From Thermococcus sp. (GTDB lineage: Archaea > Methanobacteriota_B > Thermococci > Thermococcales > Thermococcaceae): a DNA stretch of 13,905 nt. Below the pieces are notes generated by a model that made no database searches, was not told the DNA's origin, and saw nothing but the letters and a program-made list of their open reading frames with translations. Shown here piece by piece: positions 5,409-9,134 of this stretch (position 1 is its first letter; each line of letters begins with the position of its first letter). A program made the position numbers and the translations under genes. The stretch is taken from assembly GCA_027065835.1 (NCBI GenBank), contig JAMONK010000069.1:1-13905 (forward strand). The letters run 5' to 3'.

Positions 5409-5717
5409 TCAAGGGCTTTTTTCCTTCATAATCCTCTGGAACTCCGGATAGTCGGTGACGATCCTCTTTCCGTCCAGGGTCTCAAAGTACGCCTTCTTGA
5501 CCCTGATCTTTTTCGCGTCCGTGTACTTCATCTCAGGTGGGTCGTAGGATCCGGGTTCCACAACTTCGTCTTCTATTACGTAGGTTTCGAGGTCCGGCTG
5601 ACCCACGTATTTCCAGACCTCGTAGAATACCTCCGGGTCCAGGTGGATCTCCCCTTCAATCTCTGTCCAGTCTGCCCCGATGTCTTCCAGAAACTCTTTC
5701 ACCACCTCAAAGTGCAT
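5409..5717 (-). CDS. Small acidic protein of unknown function
   Basis: I do not recognise this family. The 102-aa product is acidic and soluble, with no signal or membrane segment. It has an N-terminal helix (residues 1-13), then a beta-like central part with the acidic loop DEVVEPGSYDPPEMKYTDAKK, and a C-terminal strand-turn-helix (YFETLDGKRIVTDYPEF). No cysteine or obvious metal site is seen. The start ATG 5717 follows GGGTGGTT, and a TATA box lies at 5750-5759. It converges with the permease gene (21-nt gap) and diverges from the methyltransferase gene. Base composition and codon use look like the neighbours. It is probably a real, conserved Thermococcales gene, since the frame fits neatly between neighbours with its own signals. 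Confidence 0.75.
   Translation of the reverse strand: MHFEVVKEFLEDIGADWTEIEGEIHLDPEVFYEVWKYVGQPDLETYVIEDEVVEPGSYDPPEMKYTDAKKIRVKKAYFETLDGKRIVTDYPEFQRIMKEKSP
5417..5422 (+). terminator. T-run after the TctA-like gene
   Basis: Six Ts, preceded by GGGC, lie 29 nt after the permease stop and inside the 3' end of the convergent small gene. This is a plausible intrinsic terminator for the plus-strand pair. Confidence 0.35.
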
Positions 5718-5749
5718 AGAACCACCCGCAATACTTTACGACTTCGAGG

Positions 5750-5759
5750 GTTATATACC
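5750..5759 (-). promoter_or_regulatory. TATA box for the small protein gene (near-symmetric)
   Basis: The minus strand reads GGTATATAAC. A start about 25 bp downstream, near 5730, leaves a short leader carrying GGGTGGTT before ATG 5717. The core TATATA is symmetric, so it could also fire toward the methyltransferase gene. Confidence 0.5.
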
Positions 5760-5778
5760 TATCGCACCGGACGGCCAA

Positions 5779-5788
5779 CCTTTTAAAC
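5779..5788 (+). promoter_or_regulatory. Promoter of the PUA methyltransferase gene
   Basis: CCTTTTAAAC predicts a transcription start near 5809, leaving a short leader that contains GGTGAGG immediately before ATG 5818. The upstream TTATATACC at 5751-5759 is an alternative with a longer leader. Confidence 0.5.
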
Positions 5789-5817
5789 CCCTTTTCCTAA
5801 CCGGCCCGGTGGTGAGG

Positions 5818-7008
5818 ATGGCTGAGGTAACGGTTGACGCCCAGGCCGCGAGGGCAATAGGCAAGGGCGCGATGATAGTGTTCAGAAAAGGTGTTGTGAG
5901 AGTCGAGGGTGAGATAAAACCGGGTGATGTGGTTGAGGTTTACACCCGGGGCGGCAAGTTCCTCGGGAGGGGTTTCGTCAACCCGAATTCCAACATCATG
6001 ATAAGGCTGGTAACTACGAACCGGGACACCGTGGTGAACAGGGGGCTCTTCCGCGAGAGGATTAGGAGGGCCAACGAGTACAGGAAAAAGGTCCTCGGCT
6101 ACGATAAGGCTTACAGGATGGTCTACGGTGAAGCTGATTACCTGCCGGGCCTGATCGTTGACCGCTTCAACGAGATAGCCTCCATACAGATCTCGAGCAT
6201 AGGGATGGAGAAGTTCAAGCTCGATTTGGCGGAGGCCATAATGGAGGCTGAACCGGAAATCGAGACGGTCTTCGAGAAGAACACCGGCCGCTCAAGGAGG
6301 AGGGAAGGTTTACCTGAGATAGAGCGCGTCCTCCTAGGCAAGGAGAAGTACCGGACTGTAATCGAGGAGGGTAAAGCCAAGTTCATCGTCGACATGCGCG
6401 GTCAGAAGACGGGCTTCTTCCTCGACCAGAGGGAGAACCGCATCGCTTTGGAGAAGTACGTCAAGCCCGGAATGAGGGTTCTCGACGTCTTCACCTACAC
6501 CGGCGGGTTCGCGATACACGCGGCGGTGGCGGGCGCTGATGAGGTCGTCGCCGTCGATAAGTCGCCGTGGGCAATCAACATGGTGAAGGAGAACGCCAAG
6601 CTCAACGGCGTCGAGGAGAGGATGAAGTACGTGGTCGGCTCGGCCTTCCAGGTCATGGAGGACATGATAAAGAGGGGCGAGAAGTTCGATGTGGTGATTC
6701 TCGACCCGCCCGCCTTCGTCCAGCACGAGAAGGACCTGAAAAGGGGTCTCAGGGCCTACTTCAACGTGAACTACGCCGGCTTACAGCTGGTGAAGGAGGG
6801 TGGAATACTCGTCACCGCTTCGTGCTCCCAGCACGTTGACATGGGGGCCTTCAAGGATATGGTGATAGCGGCCGCGGCAAAGGCAGGCAAGTTCCTCAAG
6901 CTCCTTGAACCCTACAGAACGCAGGCTCCCGACCATCCGATACTGATGGCATCAAAGGACACGGAGTACCTCAAGGCACTCTTCCTCTACGTTGAGGACA
7001 TGAAGTGA
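5818..7008 (+). CDS. PUA-domain class I SAM-dependent rRNA methyltransferase, RlmI/PH1915 family
   Basis: The 396-aa product matches the family length. Residues 1-70 form a PUA RNA-binding domain (GKGAMIVFRKGVVRVEG, KPGDVVEVY, FLGRGFVNP). A middle domain follows, then a Rossmann methyltransferase core. SAM motif I is LDVFTYTGGFAIHAA (222-236), the acidic residue of motif II is D247 in VVAVD, motif IV is DPPAF (296-300), and the likely catalytic cysteine is C336 in TASCSQH. E. coli RlmI makes m5C in 23S rRNA, and P. horikoshii PH1915 is the structural relative; the archaeal target is inferred. The frame is open 138 nt upstream to 5680, but that stretch overlaps the divergent gene and its promoter. 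GGTGAGG next to ATG 5818 and the PUA start set the true start. A guide-RNA candidate begins 2 nt after the stop. Confidence 0.92.
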   Translation: MAEVTVDAQAARAIGKGAMIVFRKGVVRVEGEIKPGDVVEVYTRGGKFLGRGFVNPNSNIMIRLVTTNRDTVVNRGLFRERIRRANEYRKKVLGYDKAYRMVYGEADYLPGLIVDRFNEIASIQISSIGMEKFKLDLAEAIMEAEPEIETVFEKNTGRSRRREGLPEIERVLLGKEKYRTVIEEGKAKFIVDMRGQKTGFFLDQRENRIALEKYVKPGMRVLDVFTYTGGFAIHAAVAGADEVVAVDKSPWAINMVKENAKLNGVEERMKYVVGSAFQVMEDMIKRGEKFDVVILDPPAFVQHEKDLKRGLRAYFNVNYAGLQLVKEGGILVTASCSQHVDMGAFKDMVIAAAAKAGKFLKLLEPYRTQAPDHPILMASKDTEYLKALFLYVEDMK

Positions 7009-7009
7009 A

Positions 7010-7084
7010 TGTGGGGACGATGAGGAGAAAGCACCTCCACTGAACCCGGCAAGGATGATGAGAAAACGGGTCCGAGTCCCTACA
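7010..7084 (+). ncRNA. C/D-box guide sRNA candidate between convergent methyltransferase genes
   Basis: All box elements occur in order. Box C-like ATGAGGA is at 7020-7026, guide 1 at 7027-7039, box D' CTGA at 7040-7043, an 11-nt spacer, box C' ATGATGA at 7055-7061, guide 2 at 7062-7071, and box D-like CCGA at 7072-7075. A terminal stem pairs 7010-7018 with 7076-7084 (nine pairs, one G-U), leaving G7019 as the first loop nucleotide of a kink-turn. Box C has U5 changed to G and box D has U2 changed to C; those two nucleotides face each other in a kink-turn, so the change is compensatory (G-C for U-U). By the D+5 rule the predicted targets are G in UGGAGGUGCUUUC (opposite C7035) and G in ACCCGUUUUC (opposite C7067). 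Archaeal guides direct 2'-O-methylation with fibrillarin, Nop5 and L7Ae. The weak points are two non-consensus boxes, a long D'-C' spacer and a short second guide. Confidence 0.62.
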
Positions 7085-7823
7085 CACCCAGTATCAGACT
7101 GTGCCTCCACCGCGTTCCCGCTTTAAAGCGCACGTCCCTCACGGAGTAGCCCAGCTCTTCCCCTTTTTCTGTTATGGCCTCGATTAGAGGCTTTTTATCT
7201 GGAAGAAAGAGGGCAACCTTTCCTCTGGGCTTCAGATATTCCAGGGCCTCCTCGATGAGCCTCACCGAGAAGGCCTCTCCGTGTTCGCCTCCGCCAACGC
7301 CTTCCCTCTCCGTCAGAACCCCCTTCGTGGGCCTCTCGTAGTAGGGCGGGGCGGAAAAGATTACATCAAAGAGCTCGCCCTCGGGGATTATCCCCCTGAT
7401 TATCCCACCGTCGCTCTTGATTAACCTGACTCTTCCCCCGTTCCTCTCGATGTTCTTCATGGCATAATCGAAGAACTCTTCGTCGAGCTCCGTCGCGGTA
7501 ACGTCGCACTTGAAGAGCTTGGCCGCCATAAGGGCCATCATGGCGGTGTGACCGGTTCCGATTTCCAGAACCTTCTCGCCCCCGCGCAGGAATGTCTTGA
7601 GGAAGAGGTATCGCGAGACGGGAGTTGTCACGAGCCCGTGCGGATGGTACTCTATCTCCAGCCCGAAGATAGCCTTCGCTATCGCCCTGTTGTAGAGAAT
7701 TCTGGCTTTTCTGTTCGAGAAGTCGAGCCTTCCGCGCCCGTCTAGGTAGTTGTTCAGCTCTGGAAAGAGCTTCACGGCCTCTTTTGCCGGCAGTCCTAGC
7801 TTTCCGTCCTTCCAAGCTGGCAT
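7080..7823 (-). CDS. RlmF-related SAM-dependent methyltransferase (likely N6-adenine type)
   Basis: This 247-aa Rossmann methyltransferase has SAM motif I LEIGTGHTA (86-94), an acidic motif II in TELDEEF (111-117) and motif IV SAPPYYERP (157-165). Motif IV is a variant of the NPPF/NPPY signature of amino-group (N6-adenine) methyltransferases; the first Asn is replaced by Ser-Ala. The overall pattern resembles RlmF/METTL16-type enzymes acting on structured RNA, but the archaeal substrate cannot be read from sequence. The gene lies 30 nt behind the serpin gene on the same strand. No GGTGA-type site precedes ATG 7823; instead a TATA-like box sits about 25 bp upstream, so the message is probably leaderless and independent of the serpin transcript. 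The stop codon overlaps the 3' stem of the guide-RNA candidate on the other strand. Confidence 0.82.
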   Translation of the reverse strand: MPAWKDGKLGLPAKEAVKLFPELNNYLDGRGRLDFSNRKARILYNRAIAKAIFGLEIEYHPHGLVTTPVSRYLFLKTFLRGGEKVLEIGTGHTAMMALMAAKLFKCDVTATELDEEFFDYAMKNIERNGGRVRLIKSDGGIIRGIIPEGELFDVIFSAPPYYERPTKGVLTEREGVGGGEHGEAFSVRLIEEALEYLKPRGKVALFLPDKKPLIEAITEKGEELGYSVRDVRFKAGTRWRHSLILGV

Positions 7824-7853: not shown

Positions 7854-9134
7854 TCAACCCCCTGGATCCATCAGCCTGCCCATGAAGAGTATCAGCCCCG
7901 TCTTCCTGTCGATTATGAAGAACAGGAACGGGTGATCCGCCTTGAAGACCTTGTACTCCGGATTTGTTCCGGGTGCGGCGGCTACTGTCATGACAACAGC
8001 CGTCGCTGCGGCCGCCTCCGTGCCGTTCTCTGCGACGCTGATGAACGTCTTGTGGATCACCTGGCTTATCGCCAGAGGTTTATCCGAGATGCCGCTGAAG
8101 TCTGCATCGTCACTGAATGCTTTCCCCATGCCCATACTCGCCAGAACACCTTTGAGAAGGTACCTTCTCTCAAACCTGAACTTCGGAAGGGTGAGCTTTA
8201 CGTTCTCTTCCTTCATGCCCTCGACTACGTCATCCACGAACTCGGGGGTGAGTTTTCCCTCGATCTCCTTTAATCTGCCCCTTTCCGGGAGGATAATCAC
8301 CATGCTCAGCCTTCCATCCTCGTAGGGAAGATCGATAGCCTGGAAGTGTTCTCCCTCCATATACCTGAAGCGTCCCTTCTGGTGCATCATTGGGGTGGTA
8401 ACCGTTCCGTTGGGCGTATAAAAAATCTCGTTCCTTGTGTTCTGCGGCTCGAACCTCCTCGACCAGTTGGCTTTGAAGTAAATCGCGTTGGTTATGACAA
8501 GCCTCGTGAGGGGGCTTAGACCGGAGACGAGTTCTCTGATCTTTCCGGCGGTCTGCTCCTCAACCCACCGGTTTATCTGGTTCTCAGCGCCCCTGGGGTC
8601 GTTTTTGAAATCCACCTCCCCCACCTCGCTCAGGTAGAATTTCTTCAGGATGGAGATGTAAGTCCTTTTCACGGGGTAGTCCTTCTGAACCCAGACGGCG
8701 TTTGCGGTTCTGAGTACGTAGGCATCACTGGCGGGGTTGTTCACACCGAGGATCAGCTCCCTCATTCCCTCCCTCCTCGTCAGATTCTCGCGTGGGATGT
8801 GGAGGACGGCCCCGATCTCTTCCGCGGTTTTACCACCCGCTCCCTCGTAGACCATCGCGAGGGCCGTGAAGATGCTGTAGGGTGATATGAACATGTTGCC
8901 ATCATCCGGAAGTGTCCTGTAGAGGTCGAGGGCGAAGCTGTTGCTTGAAGCGATCGTCTCCTCCATCTGCGGGGAGATGAGTCCGCCGATGTCGGTTGTG
9001 ATCCCGCTTGAGCCCCCACCACTTCCGGGGGACGTCGCAGTTTCCCCATTTTCTCCCCCGATGCATCCGCTCACGAGAACCATCGCCACAACCATCAAGA
9101 TCAAAACGAAACTCCCTGGTCGGGACGCTCTCAT
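7854..9134 (-). CDS. Lipoprotein serpin (serine protease inhibitor)
   Basis: The 426-aa product starts with a signal peptide and lipobox ending LVSGC (C24), then a Gly/Ser-rich linker to about residue 50, so it is probably lipid-anchored outside the cell. The serpin body follows: NMFISPYSIFTALAMVYEGA near 80-98, TNAIYFKANW, and the C-terminal FKADHPFLFFI signature. The reactive loop hinge is GTEAAAAT (371-378), with small residues suited to insertion, so it should be inhibitory. Counting from the hinge Glu (E369, P17) puts the scissile bond at about A385-A386, suggesting an elastase- or subtilisin-like target; this is inferred. T. kodakarensis Tk-serpin inhibits chymotrypsin- and subtilisin-like proteases. 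The start ATG 9134 is supported by GGTGAT three bases upstream. Upstream on the same strand is an M20 peptidase gene, separated by its own promoter region. Confidence 0.94.
   Translation of the reverse strand: MRASRPGSFVLILMVVAMVLVSGCIGGENGETATSPGSGGGSSGITTDIGGLISPQMEETIASSNSFALDLYRTLPDDGNMFISPYSIFTALAMVYEGAGGKTAEEIGAVLHIPRENLTRREGMRELILGVNNPASDAYVLRTANAVWVQKDYPVKRTYISILKKFYLSEVGEVDFKNDPRGAENQINRWVEEQTAGKIRELVSGLSPLTRLVITNAIYFKANWSRRFEPQNTRNEIFYTPNGTVTTPMMHQKGRFRYMEGEHFQAIDLPYEDGRLSMVIILPERGRLKEIEGKLTPEFVDDVVEGMKEENVKLTLPKFRFERRYLLKGVLASMGMGKAFSDDADFSGISDKPLAISQVIHKTFISVAENGTEAAAATAVVMTVAAAPGTNPEYKVFKADHPFLFFIIDRKTGLILFMGRLMDPGG

Follow-up and report, generated by a model that had tools for sequence, protein, structure and literature searches.

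Which RNA is encoded in the gap between the two methyltransferase genes that converge in the window (the whole stretch of 13,905 nucleotides of Thermococcus sp. DNA analysed here), and what do its two off-consensus boxes mean? A sequence-only reading had proposed a C/D-box guide RNA with a compensated kink-turn. Our analysis identifies positions 7014-7080 (+) very probably as a box C/D guide RNA of the Rfam family RF01128. The box C/D sRNA is not new, as the family is already catalogued. By comparison with its relatives it is a known-family RNA with a minor evolutionary departure, the replacement of one guide in the window lineage. Going by the sequences compared, methylation of ribosomal RNA is the most likely task of the sRNA.

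Identity and family membership

The covariance model of RF01128 matched positions 7015-7077 with 48.3 bits (cut-off 45, E = 3.7e-9). A scan of 94 genomes of the taxonomic family gave RF01128 matches in 89, with 73 of the 74 high-quality genomes and all 6 genera represented; the cut-off was passed in 71 of the 94. All 89 matching loci were fetched and one was cut by a contig end, which left 88 members with a readable box D. Chance as the origin of the feature was ruled out because of the Rfam E-value, the number of matching genomes and the covariation of the terminal stem. The sole high-quality genome of the family in which no RF01128 match was found was G035 (1.5 Mb, one contig, 99% complete), and a pattern search for the D' guide likewise gave nothing there. 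The source assembly of the window comprises 1.42 Mb in 260 contigs and is 75% complete.

Rfam names the family sR43 and describes it as 'Small nucleolar RNA sR42'. The T. kodakarensis sR42 of PMC9014305 is a different RNA. Because these labels clash, names should not be matched across the sources. No mention of RF01128 was found in the literature searched, and earlier reports may exist.

The features are collected in Table 1. The D' guide of the window RNA comprises 13 nt and the D guide 10 nt, within the range of about 10-13 nt for archaeal box C/D sRNAs. The window RNA shares with the RF01128 model the order of the boxes, the D' guide AAAGCACCUCC and its box CUGA. It differs from the model in its D guide, GAAAACGGGU where RF01128 has ACGCCCACGG, in its box C AUGAGGA and box D CCGA, and in an insertion of 11 nt between D' and C' in the alignment. 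The same box C and box D, and the same G-C at position 3b.3n of the kink-turn, occur in sR05, a circular C/D sRNA of T. kodakarensis listed in Table 1 of PMC9014305, which has other guides and lies at another locus. An alternative box C, ACGAUGA (7017-7023), was considered and rejected: this register would set G7015 against G7076 and break the stem beside box D, and the AUGAGGA register was preferred because its stem stays unbroken.

Table 1. Features of the guide RNA locus in the window.
Feature	Coordinates	Strand	Basis or remark
PUA-domain SAM-dependent methyltransferase (RlmI-like), upstream	5680..7008	+	PF10672, PF17785, PF01472
Stem extension in source genome, 5' side	7010-7013	+	pairs 6-9, not conserved
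Box C/D sRNA core	7014..7080	+	Rfam 7015-7077, conserved alignment, circular homolog
Conserved terminal stem, 5' strand GGGAC	7014..7018	+	5 pairs with double-sided changes
First nucleotide of three-nucleotide kink-turn loop	7019	+	G in 74/88, A in 13/88, U in 1/88 relatives
Box C AUGAGGA; position 5 = G = k-turn 3b	7020..7026	+	AUGAGGA in 43/88
D' guide GAAAGCACCUCCA, core GCACCUCC invariant	7027..7039	+	core in 88/88; candidate 16S and 23S targets
Box D' CUGA	7040..7043	+	CUGA in 85/88
D'-C' spacer ACCCGGCAAGG	7044..7054	+	first five bases complementary to D guide end
Box C' AUGAUGA	7055..7061	+	sequence
D guide GAAAACGGGU, canonical ACGCCCACGG replaced	7062..7071	+	alignment of relatives
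Box D CCGA; position 2 = C = k-turn 3n	7072..7075	+	CCGA in 31/88
Conserved terminal stem, 3' strand GUCCC	7076..7080	+	pairing and covariation
Stem extension in source genome, 3' side	7081-7084	+	pairs 6-9, not conserved
Methyltransf_10 protein, distantly RlmF-like, convergent	7080..7823	-	PF05971, 36.5 bits

The sequence-only reading had described boxes C, D', C' and D in this order, within a C/D-box guide RNA that fills the gap between two methyltransferase stops. The sequence confirmed the order and the coordinates the placement; the identity was borne out by the Rfam match, the conservation in the family, the covariation of the stem and an expressed circular homolog. Its expectation that consensus-based scanners could miss the RNA held in part. 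Rfam does detect the window RNA, 3 bits above the cut-off, but the stricter filters of the 94-genome scan left a shorter match (7015-7063), whose 35.8 bits did not reach the cut-off. Likewise, the homolog ncRNA03 is tabled apart from the named C/D RNAs in PMC9014305, yet the text of the same paper notes a C/D resemblance.

An expressed circular homolog in T. kodakarensis

The RF01128 match of T. kodakarensis (G024), at 1593071-1593134 (-), coincided with ncRNA03 (1593064-1593134), which the table of PMC9014305 gives as a ligase-dependent circular RNA of 71 nt; the 16S of G024 falls inside the stretch of the T. kodakarensis 16S circle in that table. In the small-RNA reads given there, ncRNA03 had 403 circular and 7,565 aligned reads in the wild type and 1 circular and 9,633 aligned reads in the Rnl knockout. 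The total-RNA set contained 4 circular and 149 aligned reads in the wild type, against 0 and 83 in the knockout. The table gives no alias for ncRNA03; the text names it among three non-coding RNAs and describes all affected circular RNAs as homologous to C/D box sRNAs.

Judged by its family match, its D' guide and the genes beside it, ncRNA03 is orthologous to the window RNA. Unlike the window RNA it has G-U at 3b.3n, the canonical D guide and a degenerate box C' (GUGCUGA). An RNA without a C/D name in the table of its own paper is now tied to a catalogued guide-RNA family, and thereby gains two candidate rRNA targets.

By analogy with this homolog the mature window RNA is probably circular and would extend over about 7015-7083, with the junction placed to +/-5 nt. 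It is probably processed from a transcript running on out of the upstream methyltransferase gene. The ATP-dependent RNA ligase Rnl, shown to circularise the T. kodakarensis homolog, probably closes this RNA as well. A scan for bacterial-type promoters, which does not cover archaeal ones, found no promoter-like site just upstream of the sRNA.

Gene neighbourhood and strand

The sRNA lies between the stops of two genes, the PUA methyltransferase gene (7008) and the one that converges on it (7080-7082). Neither flanking gene reached the cut-off of the specific model with which it was compared: the upstream methyltransferase scored 305.5 bits against NF053718 (cut-off 575), and the convergent gene 31.4 bits against the RlmF model, far below its cut-off of 302. 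Beyond the convergent gene, and adjoining it, a serpin gene was found at 7857-9134 (-) (PF00079, 409 bits), the protein having a lipoprotein-like start by eye; a serpin homolog stands at the same place in several relatives.

The neighbourhood was parsed in 87 relatives, with an identity of at least 60% required for a neighbour call. The arrangement of the window, in which the sRNA follows the PUA methyltransferase gene on one strand and meets a convergent RlmF-like gene downstream, was found in 37 of them, in some with a flanking gene up to about 1.4 kb away. In eight the gene gap was the same but the sRNA was encoded on its other strand; 35 had one of the two flanking genes and 7 had neither within the fetched 1 to 1.5 kb on each side. 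The sRNAs of the same gap whose strand is opposite relative to both genes are those of L004, L005, L017, L028, L031, L032, L035 and L046; they lie at about 1000-1060 or 1500-1563 and have a terminal stem of the GGCA or GACA type. In L048, and in six further members with a stem of the GCCGC or ACCGC type, the sRNA and the PUA gene were opposed and an RlmF-like gene was not seen. From these arrangements the guide gene appears to have switched strands at least twice.

The position of the RNA, a few bases past the stop codon of the upstream gene, means that it may be part of a 3' UTR, and the element could then be no guide RNA at all but a kink-turn that acts in cis, binding L7Ae near the 3' end of the message for the methyltransferase. 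We consider this very improbable, given that the D' guide is invariant, both internal boxes are present, the homolog is circular and the sRNA is oriented against the flanking genes in other genera.

Terminal stem

The stem 7010-7018/7076-7084 forms nine pairs in the window, including G7013-U7081, as the sequence-only reading had counted them, but conservation reaches only pairs 1 to 5. These inner pairs (7014-7018/7076-7080) were formed in 67, 67, 65, 68 and 60 of 69 unique sequences, respectively, and pairs 6 to 10 in 44, 32, 24, 30 and 28. Covariation was assessed in an alignment of 45 sequences, chosen as representatives of the 65 unique sequences with a stem of at least four pairs. All five inner pairs had changed on both sides and 96.9% of the cells were paired; the named structure held 62 double-change cells, against 15.4 in shuffles. 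We concluded from the double-sided changes in all five pairs and the paired cells that the terminal stem is under selection over a length of five pairs. The nine-pair stem appears partly incidental, as its outer four pairs were not kept in the relatives. On its 3' strand the stem runs into the convergent gene and shares sequence with its stop codon.

The kink-turn and its 3b.3n pair

The kink-turn of archaeal C/D sRNAs binds L7Ae, and then Nop5 and fibrillarin. By analogy the terminal stem and boxes C and D of the window RNA would form a kink-turn that binds L7Ae, followed by Nop5 and fibrillarin. G7019, A7020 and U7021 make up the three-nucleotide loop, and G7024 therefore faces C7073 at 3b.3n. 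The letters for the tandem sheared G-A pairs and for G-C at 4b.4n are present in the window; they were kept in 87 of the 88 members, and in 16 of 16 members that lack the canonical D guide, the window included. The geometry thus agrees with the sequence-only reading, which had set G7019 as the first base of the loop and G-C at 3b.3n.

That reading had further regarded the two box changes as defects that compensate each other. Within the family the 3b.3n position was found in many states. Among the 69 unique sequences these were G-C (17), G-U (15), A-U (8), C.C (7), C-G (5), A.G (4), A.A (4), U.U (4), A.C (2), U-A (1), U-G (1) and C.U (1). The U.U of the consensus (RUGAUGA with CUGA) was present in 4 of the 88 members, and the window has G-C. 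Standard pairs were enriched: 47 were observed where shuffles that ignore relatedness gave 35.5 (p = 4.5e-4). Even so, 22 of the 69 unique sequences have no standard pair, and the position is unpaired in 14 of the 45 aligned sequences. As both positions vary throughout the family and these 22 sequences have no standard pair, 'compensated' holds only in part, and two defects cancelling each other is, on this comparison, too strong a description. The check for covariation of the two box positions across relatives gave this enrichment, in a count that ignores relatedness. On a poorly resolved tree of 82 rows, parsimony required 16 changes for the fifth nucleotide of box C and 20 for the second of box D. 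In the flanking-protein tree 35 of 79 inner branches were open, and the supported branches provided the tree-aware test with between 1 and 4 independent pairs, a number insufficient for testing a linkage of the box positions.

As a control set we used the 24 circular RNAs of T. kodakarensis in Table 1 of PMC9014305, one of which was masked and two of which were unparsed, leaving 21 including ncRNA03. Their 3b.3n states were U.U (12), C.C (4), G-U (2), A-U (1), G-C (1) and A.C (1). Thus 9 of the 21 have a state other than U.U, and one of these is the same G-C as in the window. Wherever box D position 2 was not U, box C position 5 was not U either (6/6, Fisher p = 0.0015); box C position 5 departed from U alone in 3 of the 21. 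Off-consensus box pairs in the circular RNAs of T. kodakarensis (L149, L150, L151-L171) are often C.C. U.U at 3b.3n is common, but it is not defining for an archaeal box C/D sRNA. The alignments indicate that box C position 5 and box D position 2 are linked, yet nearly every combination is tolerated. No paper on covariation of these two positions surfaced in the literature search.

According to published work, archaeal C/D kink-turns favour U.U at 3b.3n, and a Watson-Crick pair there prevents folding in metal ions alone (McPhee et al. 2014, PMC4382518; also PMC5689011). The G-C of the window is one of many tolerated states, and its kink-turn is predicted to fold only upon binding of protein (L7Ae). 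The family provides 88 natural k-turn variants at 3b.3n, where the published folding rules predict directly.

The D' guide and its candidate rRNA targets

The core GCACCTCC of the D' guide was invariant in all 88 members. Target tests used the rRNA of relatives; the source assembly gave no 16S or 23S match. A search of rRNAs and tRNAs with both guides, proposed as a check by the sequence-only reading, gave conserved candidates in 16S and 23S for the D' guide, none for the D guide and nothing convincing among tRNAs.

All 13 SSU sequences examined, including one fragment, contained the 16S site GGAGGTGCATGG. The letters of the window form 8 Watson-Crick pairs there (score 8.0), a guide ending in U (39/88) forms 9 and the guide ATGCACCTCC (9/88) forms 10. 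The best conserved score, at this site, was reached by 7 of 400 shuffles for the U-ending guide and by 2 of 400 for ATGCACCTCC. Archaeal box C/D sRNAs direct methylation to the nucleotide that faces the fifth base upstream of D or D'; in 16S this nucleotide is G991 of G013, at about E. coli 1050. It lies in helix 34; the number presumes that the E. coli gene, in which the position is 1052, runs 2 bases long, as judged by its landmarks.

With the letters of the window, the best conserved score belonged to a site in 23S rRNA, UGGGGGUGUU at about G2646 of G013 (8.6, against 8.0 for the 16S site), which was present in 14 of 14 LSU sequences; the score was reached by 3 of 400 shuffles. With the guide string shifted by one base the score was 8.0, reached by 34 of 400 shuffles. 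The D' guide could then act on 23S and not, or not only, on 16S, which we regard as possible but doubtful. A guide ending in A, as in 47 of 88 members and in the window, pairs with 23S over 10 positions, two of them G-U. Guides ending in U or C (41/88), however, lose the first of these pairs and ATGCACC guides the tenth, and both the final U and ATGCACC lengthen the pairing with 16S. Because the guide variants of the family lengthen the 16S pairing, the 16S target was preferred, as a judgement and not a proof. The D' guide is accordingly given a slightly favoured prediction, that it directs 2'-O-methylation of the 16S G at about E. coli 1050. No methylation map of the 16S or the 23S candidate site was found. 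Among the 44 tRNA matches of G014 the best run score for the D' guide was 7.3, which was not convincing.

Turnover of the D guide

The canonical D guide ACGCCCACGG was exact in 68 of the 88 members and present as a close variant in 4 more (72/88); the remaining 16, the window among them, are without it. The canonical guide forms 8 pairs at 16S U568, at about E. coli 625, a result reached by 64 of 400 shuffles. A search for the canonical guide at another sRNA gave 8 hits in 15 genomes, of which 2 were the RF01128 loci of G013 and G024 and the other 6 had no C/D box arrangement by eye, so that a move of the guide to another sRNA was rejected.

For the guide of the window, GAAAACGGGU, no conserved rRNA site was found (the best match was reached by 195 of 400 shuffles), and the best run score among the 44 tRNA matches of G014 was 5.3. 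The D guide of the window lineage has, on the alignment, lost the canonical sequence and has probably ceased to act as a guide on rRNA. The RNA presents a double-guide case with turnover of one guide beside an invariant core in the other.

It is conceivable that the new guide is functional, on a new 23S site (about G2945) or on another RNA. Among the genomes with the ACGGGU form, 3 of the 4 tested offer 8 Watson-Crick pairs at the G2945 site and the fourth offers 7. Four of 5 tested genomes with the AAGGGU form keep the 23S sequence too, but there the fifth guide base is A in place of C and mispairs at the very nucleotide to be methylated. Together with the shuffles of the window guide, nearly half of which did equally well on conserved sites, and with the tRNAs of G014, none of which pairs well, this makes a functional D guide unlikely.

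A different fate of the D half is suggested by the spacer between D' and C'. Many Thermococcus members with the canonical D guide have a spacer, GACCGGCGU, that can pair with it (GGCGU/ACGCC), and in the window lineage the spacer ACCCGGC and the guide end CGGGU are again complementary; in L079 a third guide type and the spacer form a stem of nine pairs. ACCCG/CGGGU is part of the minimum-energy fold of the window. The D half might accordingly have become a structural hairpin in which spacer and guide pair, the RNA being a single-guide sRNA. Shuffles of single sequences, however, gave p values for this stem from 0.002 to 1.0 overall (0.042 for the window). Among members whose stem has at least four pairs, most values lay at 0.04-0.3 and the highest was 0.46. 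Three or fewer spacer-guide pairs were found in L086-L088, and no or few in members with short spacers, and such pairing would compete with the RNP. We consider the hairpin rather unlikely, and take the complementarity of the compared spacers and guides as a lead and no more.

The two themes can be joined. One Thermococcus lineage would have replaced D guide and spacer together with their complementarity kept, giving a self-pairing module and a single-guide RNA; across the C/D RNAs of Thermococcales, the two facing box positions would moreover evolve as a linked pair that decides between kink-turn folding in ions alone and folding only on protein. As a whole we hold this joint reading to be improbable. 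The replaced D guide that probably no longer acts on rRNA, beside an invariant D' guide, is the reading kept here.

Distribution beyond the family

In a search of 115 genomes of the phylum, the pattern of D' guide and D' box was found in 83, once in each, and the reversed pattern gave 0 hits. Of these 83 genomes 82 belong to the family. Among the 21 genomes of other families the pattern occurred only in G114, in a sequence without C/D boxes and with no such sRNA.

Two further loci, titled Thermofilum and Methanomethylicota (L131:1556-1578 (-) and L143:2977-2999 (-)), carry a different C/D-like RNA with the guide AAAAGCACCTCC. This is the same guide as the D' guide of the window, but it is placed before box D; no Rfam sRNA match was found at either locus. 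The scan from which they come listed at least 22 stretches and is no census, as T. kodakarensis has the pattern yet was unlisted. By estimate one or two chance hits of the pattern were expected in that scan, but L131 and L143 also share a second guide, TGACCTGCTC. Their shared guides suggest that separate sRNAs may target the same rRNA site.
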